This document shows, piece by piece, positions 10,894 to 42,886 of a stretch of DNA of 42,886 nt; within the stretch, counting starts at the first letter, position 1, and every line of letters begins with the position of its first letter. This DNA is from Verrucomicrobiota bacterium. GTDB lineage: Bacteria; Verrucomicrobiota; Verrucomicrobiia; Verrucomicrobiales; Akkermansiaceae. Both the position numbers and the translations under genes were made by a program. The notes under the pieces are model-generated. The model was not told the origin of the DNA, made no database searches, and was given only the letters and a program-made list of their open reading frames with translations. The DNA is taken from positions 1-42,886 of the forward strand of contig WBXD01000004.1 in assembly GCA_008932935.1 (NCBI GenBank), given 5' to 3'.

Positions 10894-10986
10894 AAAGACA
10901 CAAGACTTGAAGACGCAAGACTTGAAGACGCAAGACACAAGACGCAAGACACAAGACGCAAGACACAAGACGCAAGACACAAGACT
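10894..10986. repeat. Heptanucleotide array (AAGACAC / AAGACGC / AAGACTT variants)
   Basis: AAGACACAAGACTTGAAGACGCAAGACTTGAAGACGCAAGACACAAGACGC..., with a higher-order 14-mer AAGACACAAGACGC repeated about 4 times. Confidence 0.95.
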
Positions 10987-28784: not shown

Positions 28785-29882
28785 TCAGACCATCACGCGC
28801 AAATCCCTGGCGCTCCACAGCTGTCCCTTCGCACCGCTGCCGCTACCCTTCATCGCCCGCGCTCCATCCTTGCGCTTGGCGCTGAAGCGTTCCCTTGCCC
28901 GTGCAAATGCCTCGTTCACAAACTCCTTGCTGCCGATCACCGCCCCATCCGTGAAATACCTCACCCGGCAGTGCAACATTTGGGTCATTCCCAGATCCTT
29001 CAAGACCGTGCCGTTGCCTTTACTTTCTAACAAATCAGCCGAGTTCAGCATGTTTTTGGCCACTCGTTTTCCGGCTCCAGTCACGTCGGCCCGCCCAGGC
29101 TTGCGCCCCAAGGCCAAGCCCATCAGCCGTCGGTACAGACGCGATGCATCCTGCCATTGCTCCGCCTCTAAACCCACTCCCTGGTCGCAAAAATATGCTC
29201 GCACCAAGCCCTCGCGGGCTTTTTTCCCATTCCCTTTCCTCCCACCGCCAACCGCTTCTCCATAACTGCTCCAGCGGTAATCCTTGGGGTCTTTGACCAT
29301 CCCCGCACGCACCGGGTTGAGGTCGATATACGCCGATATCGTCCGCGCTGCCACCCCGCTTTCCACGATCACGCTCTTGAAGCGCTCTTCCCACAAGGTT
29401 CCTGACCGCGAATGCACTCGGTTAAACCACCGCGTGAAGCGAATCAACAAGCCCTTCATGAACTCACTCAAGTCATGCATCCGGTAGGTGAACCGGGCAT
29501 GAATGGCCGCCACCCGCTCCTTACCCGCTCCATCATCCGCGCCCATAGAACTCTTCCTCGCCTCCACCAATTCCGCTGCCACTCCCGCCACCACCACCTC
29601 GGAATATAGCCCGCCAAGACGTTGCAGTAATTCCTCGTCACTCAGCCCGCCATCCGCCATCCGCGGCACCTCCAATAGCAAATGGAAATGGTTAGACATC
29701 ACGCAATACGCCAAGACCCGGCAGCCTGAGAAATTCTCATACATCCGAAAAAACATCCGGAACGCCTCGCATTCCCTTTCCTCAAATACAAACTGCTTAT
29801 CTACCACTCGCGAGATACAGTGATATATCACCGGCTTCGTGCCCGAATCCTTCCAACCCGCCAGCCATCGTGACCTGCGCAT
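28785..29882 (-). mobile_element. REP-associated tyrosine transposase (RAYT, Y1/IS200-like HUH) gene
   Basis: VIYHCISRVVDKQFVFEERECEAF, CVMSNHFHLLLEVP (HUH-type motif), GLLIRFTRWFNRVHSRSGTLWEERFKSVIVES, AYIDLNPVRAGMVKDPKDYRWSSYGEAVGG. Confidence 0.92.
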
Positions 29883-42169: not shown

Positions 42170-42380
42170 GGGCACTCAATGCGTTCGCTCTCGTTGCTAC
42201 AATGGCACGTTATCAAGCGCCCCGCATCTGACTATCTGCAAGTTTCACAGTTCCTGAGCTCGGTGGAAAAAGTTAAGGCGAAAATACTTGACCTACCAGG
42301 CTTCAAGAGCCACCGGGCCGAGCCATCCAAGTCCAGGTTGAAGGCACCAACCGACTCGATACTGAACCAGTCGCACCACT

Positions 42381-42460
42381 AGAACATCCTGGCGTCTGCT
42401 AGGACATCCAGGAGTCTGCTAGGACATCCAGGAGTCTGCTAGGACATCCTAGCGTCCGTA
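42381..42460. repeat. 20-bp tandem repeat, about 4 units
   Basis: AGAACATCCTGGCGTCTGCT / AGGACATCCAGGAGTCTGCT / AGGACATCCAGGAGTCTGCT / AGGACATCCTAGCGTCCGTA. Confidence 0.93.
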
Positions 42461-42484
42461 CGGACATCAGGATGTCCTAGCAGA
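42435..42484. repeat. Nested palindrome A
   Basis: Perfect 16-bp outer stem TCTGCTAGGACATCCT / AGGATGTCCTAGCAGA enclosing the 12-bp palindrome GTCCGTACGGAC (42454-42465). Confidence 0.93.
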
Positions 42485-42580
42485 GTGGAGCCAGACGCGG
42501 ATCTTCTTTCAAGACTCACCAATTTCTGGAGGCCGTGCCGAGAAATGGTTGGCGATATCGCGACAAACCCGACTGCTCCG

Positions 42581-42621
42581 CTGGGACATCCTGGCGTCCG
42601 ATCGGACAGCAGAATGTCCTA
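42581..42621. repeat. Nested palindrome B, homologous to A
   Basis: GGGACATCCTGGC / AGCAGAATGTCCT imperfect outer arms around GTCCGATCGGAC (42596-42607). Confidence 0.85.
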
Positions 42622-42783
42622 ACGAAGTAGAGACCGCTGCGGAGCTTTTTCTGGAACCGGCCGATCTTGGGGACCGTCGTCGCAGGAACGTGGGCAAAAT
42701 TGCGATTTAAGCAGATTTGCTGGGGGCCGAAAGCCCGCAGCATCTGACAGGTGGTGGGCAAGCCCGCCGCGTTTGGGGCTACA

Positions 42784-42886
42784 ACAAGACACAAGACACA
42801 GACACAAGACACAAGACACAAGACACAAGACACAAGACACAAGACACAAGACACAAGACACAAGACACAAGACACAAGACACAAGA
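42784..42886. repeat. Heptanucleotide array (AAGACAC)n running off the window end
   Basis: About 14 near-perfect AAGACAC units with one single-base slip (ACACAGACAC near 42797). Confidence 0.97.

Follow-up and report, generated by a model that had tools for sequence, protein, structure and literature searches.

Two related palindromes close to one end of the analysed window (the whole stretch of DNA under study, 42,886 nucleotides) raise the question of what kind of element they belong to and how their arms remain complementary. The original prediction described a duplicated unit of about 130 bp with pairing apparently maintained, and offered a small structured RNA, a protein-binding array or a mobile palindromic unit as explanations. 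Direct inspection of the sequence bore out the two homologous palindromes at 42435-42625, with both stems and both inner palindromes. Copy A consists of a perfect 16-bp stem, in which 42435-42450 pairs with 42469-42484, enclosing GTCCGTACGGAC at 42454-42465, and copy B of an imperfect stem (42578-42625) enclosing GTCCGATCGGAC at 42596-42607. RNA folding compared with shuffled sequences gave z -9.3 for copy A and z -4.8 for copy B, and the covariance model matched copy B with 66.4 bits. Absent from the original prediction were a 20-bp unit resembling half an arm, repeated in tandem to the left of copy A, and the larger element, from about 42260 to 42780, in which the palindrome pair is embedded. 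The features of this region are as follows:

42260 to 42277, plus strand: degraded left terminal inverted repeat of a MITE, recognised by alignment with the undamaged end of L017 (C90 copy)
42270 to 42378, plus strand: left module of the element (blastn against L017 1246-1353, the C90 copy, 88% identity over 109 bp)
42379 to 42449, plus strand: 3.5 tandem copies of the 20-bp unit CTAGGACATCCAGGAGTCTG, similar to the palindrome's left arm (94% matches in Tandem Repeats Finder)
42435 to 42484, unstranded: palindrome copy A with its 36-bp family core at 42442-42477 (direct sequence, family pattern, folding)
42485 to 42577, unstranded: spacer separating the two palindromes, which begins with sequence homologous to the right flank of B (flank alignment against shuffles; tandem duplication of period 142)
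42578 to 42625, unstranded: palindrome copy B with its 36-bp core at 42584-42619 (direct sequence, family pattern, folding, covariance model)
42626 to 42780, plus strand: right module of the MITE (blastn of 42577-42780 against L006 1482-1687, the C23 copy, 89% identity)
42784 to 42886, unstranded: 7-bp tandem array (ACAAGAC)x15 reaching the contig end (Tandem Repeats Finder)

The cores of the two palindromes are offset, start to start, by exactly 142 bp, and their right flanks, already said to align in the original prediction, do so above dinucleotide shuffles over 40-105 bp (2/2000 at 40 bp; 0/2000 at 60, 85 and 105 bp). The doublet in the window is a tandem duplication of a 142-bp block comprising the palindrome and about 106 bp, in agreement with the duplicated unit that had been proposed, and the same 142-bp doublet occurs in the source-genome contigs C59 and C90 and as well in contig C250 of genome G036 and in WBXE01000062. 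The difference between TA and AT at the centre of the inner palindromes is real, but it provides no evidence for a stem: the centre states AT, TA and TT are uninformative in this respect because they are located where the loop of the hairpin would be.

Comparison with the rest of the source genome revealed the nature of the larger element. The window element maps onto source-genome MITEs at 82-89% identity, and its intact relatives carry 18-bp terminal inverted repeats, CATGCGCGTCAAGTTAAG, and no transposase gene. Four palindrome-bearing elements with paired CATGCGCGTCAAGTTAAG ends, the terminal inverted repeats being held in common with an insertion sequence (IS), were found in the source genome: C79 (277 bp, the smallest), C88 (313 bp), C90 (612 bp) and C23 (850 bp). 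A metagenome-assembled genome (MAG) from Lac Pavin has elements some 195 bp long that share these ends and contain the palindrome, the remaining interior being unrelated. Across 37 elements with these ends, identity between the two flanks reaches a sharp peak at 9 bp, where it is 0.769 as against 0.557 when ends are mispaired, and 11 of the 37 match perfectly. There is no peak at 7, 8, 10 or 11 bp, and the 9-bp target duplications are biased to CCNNNNNGG. Poor target duplications in the C90 copy (4/9 matches) and in the partner IS described below (5/9) speak against the reading as a MITE. The window copy keeps only the inner AAGTTAAG (42270-42277) of the left end, the outer ten bases being gone, and the array (ACAAGAC)x15 stands in place of the right end; the only ORF of at least 100 aa across the element reads through this array. 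Since the outer left end is lost and the right end is unrecognisable, the window copy is probably dead and immobile.

Several observations concern the surroundings and fillers of these elements. Heptanucleotide arrays (ACAAGAC / AAGACGC) are present in the window at 42784-42886 and at 10910-10985, and blastn matched similar arrays in L095, L023 and L115, which points to their dispersal in the genus. A 9-bp minisatellite (TTGCACCAC / TTGGACCAG) lies directly left of the palindrome in the MITEs (L017 1310-1490, L006 1430-1485, L009 1400-1490, L015 1430-1480), and its copy number differs widely between copies. Other MITEs, in L274, L276, L278, L279 and L288, share the IS4 ends but have unrelated interiors, several of them with large inverted repeats of their own; these ends appear to have taken up a wide variety of fillers. 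MITEs with these ends (L198 7715-7933, L274 1489-1670 and others) have inserted into GC-rich, nearly palindromic sites, such as AACCCCAACGGGGTT, the site reconstructed from L198, and these sites are possibly terminator hairpins.

A search for the exact MITE end in 73 genomes of the genus revealed one pair of ends 1,647 bp apart (genome G323, contig C400), identical to those of the MITEs and enclosing a single 466-aa protein. This protein matches DDE_Tnp_1 (PF01609) with an E-value of 5e-22 and the NCBIfam IS4 transposase model NF033592 with 181 bits against a cut-off of 115, and the Y(2)R(3)E(6)K motif is readable in the ORF as YGLRWRIEVIFKAWK. The first 40 bp or so at the left end of this partner IS recur at one end of the C79 and C90 MITEs (0/2000 shuffles). 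In its single DDE transposase ORF with the YREK motif and in its size the partner IS, as distinct from the window copy, resembles the IS4 family, and the target duplication of about one helical turn expected for that family is seen as the 9-bp peak over the 37 elements, the autonomous copy itself matching at the 5 of 9 positions given above. Its ends resemble and fit both the IS4Sa pattern (CA------T, duplications of 8-10 bp; PMC2266710) and the IS231 pattern (CAT-------AA--TAA, duplications of 10-12 bp; PMC2266710), and the duplication length of 9 bp fits IS4Sa. The partner IS belongs to the IS4 family and may fall in its IS4Sa or IS231 subgroup. The plasmid-borne relatives found are only about 25-28% identical. 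An IS4 transposase of the partner type had no match in the source genome (71% complete), G006, G029 or G036, and because of this result the MITEs of these four genomes may be relics rather than mobile at present.

The palindrome itself was traced with the 36-bp family pattern GGACATNCTNNNGTCCGNNCGGACNNCAGNATGTCC, allowing at most 3 mismatches, and with the reversed pattern as a control. Twenty places in the incomplete source genome match the pattern and none matches the control; 14 further places were found in three genomes of the same genus among 58 related genomes searched. The checks that came with the original prediction, on further copies, covariation and alignment of the flanks, were all run, and the observation survived them. 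In the GTDB collection the half pattern returned 62 stretches, nearly all from six MAGs of freshwater Verrucomicrobia/Akkermansiaceae (JAPLUI and JAPLUJ from Lac Pavin, WBXE, CAISTY, CAIZNN and CAIKDP), and four single matches elsewhere (Achromobacter, a gammaproteobacterium and two Streptomyces) look like chance. Among 289 genomes of the order searched with the covariance model, under strict filters and an even draw that may miss copies, G019 (same genus, sister family) was positive, and the matches in G140 and G216 were weak and unconvincing. The sister palindrome family in G019 (L169, L172, L174 and L177, near position 1501) has the form GCGACATnnnnnTGGTCCGATCGGACCAnnnnnATGTCGC, with a middle that varies but is mirrored. 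A row of several partial palindromes was seen on a Lac Pavin contig (L215 2730-2850). A viral origin was rejected, as none of the viral contigs carried the palindrome. None of the papers searched names this repeat or MITE in Verrucomicrobia, and the repeat family itself appears undescribed so far.

These data suggest that the feature probably belongs to a decayed MITE, non-autonomous and derived from an IS of the IS4 family, which carries an interspersed, genus-level palindromic repeat (36-48 bp). Of the three proposals, that of a mobile palindromic unit is the one supported, in the sense that an IS4-type MITE carries the palindromes and that they are dispersed. With the ends, the duplications and the partner IS all observed, an IS4-type transposase recognising the 18-bp ends presumably moved the MITE in trans, and insertion into GC-rich target sites would have generated the 9-bp duplication.

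Not every palindrome is found within a recognisable MITE (exceptions include L010, L094, L097, L220 and L235), and the palindrome may therefore have its own dispersal route or be older than the MITE. In its strongest form, which we regard as rather unlikely, this idea makes the palindrome an independent selfish or functional module with its own mechanism of propagation or selection, keeping its two-fold symmetry through mirrored mutation, occurring alone and in small arrays, and having found its way, as a hairpin passenger, into two or more unrelated backbones of IS4-type MITEs, which then spread it through lake Verrucomicrobia.

A similarly small chance is given to the idea that the palindrome is a REP-type element, mobilised in the form of a single-stranded hairpin by a transposase of the Y1 (RAYT/IS200-like) kind, the IS4 MITEs having merely captured it. 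The solitary palindromes without MITE ends recall REP doublets, as do the palindromes that occur in pairs at a spacing of 67 bp, with 31 conserved bp between them, on the CAISTY contigs L199 and L225 (L233 holds a variant); the source genome has 13 matches to Y1_Tnp genes and G036 has 42, and GTAG-type REPs have been reported in the verrucomicrobium O. terrae (PMC3733652). However, GTAG-type REPs flank and associate with RAYT genes (PMC3733652), whereas among all palindrome loci retrieved a Y1-like ORF lies near the palindrome at one place only, in contig C250 of G036 (L096, the same place as L197). Inspection of 33 copies and 65 further places found neither a GTAG nor a CGTC tag at one foot of the stem, and the element is two-fold symmetric. 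Given the missing tag and a linked Y1 gene at one place among the loci retrieved, membership in the RAYT/REP system is considered unlikely. The window itself holds a Y1_Tnp-like gene on the minus strand (29661-29831, in a 384-aa frame), and the HUH-type genes counted in the two genomes are unlinked to the palindromes.

The pairing of the arms was examined across copies. Over 33 aligned copies 85.5% of cells are paired and 10 pairs are changed on both sides, with 0-2 of 500 shuffles reaching pairing as high and slid controls far lower, the counts taking in related copies and the shuffle control leaving kinship in. The 22 Lac Pavin-type MITEs have 94.8% of cells paired, above controls, with one two-state C-G/A-U column and symmetric changes in the outer stem; their number of doubly changed pairs is unexceptional (47/500 shuffles as high). 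Symmetric, pairing-preserving change across copies and species is real, which backs the predicted maintenance of pairing, with kinship among the copies as a caveat.

Such pairing could be taken for a functional structured RNA (an sRNA or a cis-regulatory RNA) of about 130 bp per unit, favoured by the strong hairpin and by the support for its pairing. This reading of the original prediction is very improbable, as nothing beyond the hairpin sustains it: in the conserved tail the covariation term of the consensus fold is -0.03, so that a covariation-supported structure was found for the hairpin and not over the whole unit; no Rfam family came near its curated gathering score, the only matches being sub-threshold microRNA matches to the plain hairpin; and the palindrome has different neighbouring sequence in different MITE lineages. 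Integron attC sites have arms of the form RYYYAAC..GTTRRRY; the arms here, GTTAGGAC..GTCCTAAC, run opposite in sense, and this candidate was dropped.

The arrangement of the conserved blocks recalls a DNA site with two-fold symmetry, to be bound by a protein dimer or tetramer: four GGAC/GTCC half-sites alternate in orientation at intervals of roughly one helical turn. These blocks hardly vary among the 33 copies, the half-arm units in the window are tandemly repeated, and the 36-bp core of the 22 MITEs shows 7 changes in 748 letters when the two-state pair is left out, an exclusion chosen after seeing the data, vs 0.034-0.060 per site in the interior. With all columns included, however, the core equals the left interior in conservation (both 0.034), and its low divergence may reflect recent spread. 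Moreover, the non-conserved middle is also kept complementary, which is needless for a protein touching only the conserved blocks, and we consider a protein site of this kind decidedly unlikely.

For a palindrome carried by an IS4-type MITE, the reading preferred here, the upkeep of pairing can be explained in more than one way. According to published work, perfect inverted repeats that carry multi-base compensatory changes can arise by template switching (PMC8794818), and the mirrored arm changes could be explained equally well by hairpin selection or by template switching in replication. Whether as RNA or as single-stranded DNA, the palindrome can fold into a long hairpin, and the drift of arms that nevertheless stay complementary most likely reflects a mixture of arm-to-arm template switching and selection on the hairpin. 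A host function of the hairpin may be envisaged, for example in transcript protection or termination, roles that have been proposed for REP hairpins. Strong covariation in a dispersed palindrome need not imply a functional RNA: MITE copies at only about 6% flank divergence already show mirrored arm changes, and the dozens of young copies in one genome would offer a good natural test of template-switch upkeep of hairpins against selection.

Among known systems, the palindrome resembles the REP/BIME elements of the GTAG and CGTC superfamilies (PMC3733652) as a short extragenic palindrome present in tens of copies, as singles, pairs and small arrays. Unlike them it is longer (36-48 bp), two-fold symmetric, devoid of the GTAG/CGTC tag and of any RAYT linkage found, and often situated inside IS4-type MITEs. 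Bacterial MITEs are described as elements of 70-300 bp with 15-30 bp terminal inverted repeats and no coding capacity (PMC3733652). The element shares with them its non-autonomous nature, IS ends and target duplication, and MITEs often fold strongly; it departs from usual MITEs in the length of the source-genome copies (up to 850 bp) and in a long internal palindrome common to backbones with otherwise unrelated interiors. MIC231 elements are IS231-derived mobile insertion cassettes, and, although no passenger gene is seen here, they are likewise non-autonomous, bounded by the ends of an IS and flanked by a target duplication. The element is thus a new family of a familiar sort, an interspersed hairpin repeat in IS4-type MITEs of freshwater Verrucomicrobia rather than a new kind of gene or RNA machine, and it adds an IS4-type MITE family to a poorly described freshwater verrucomicrobial genus.
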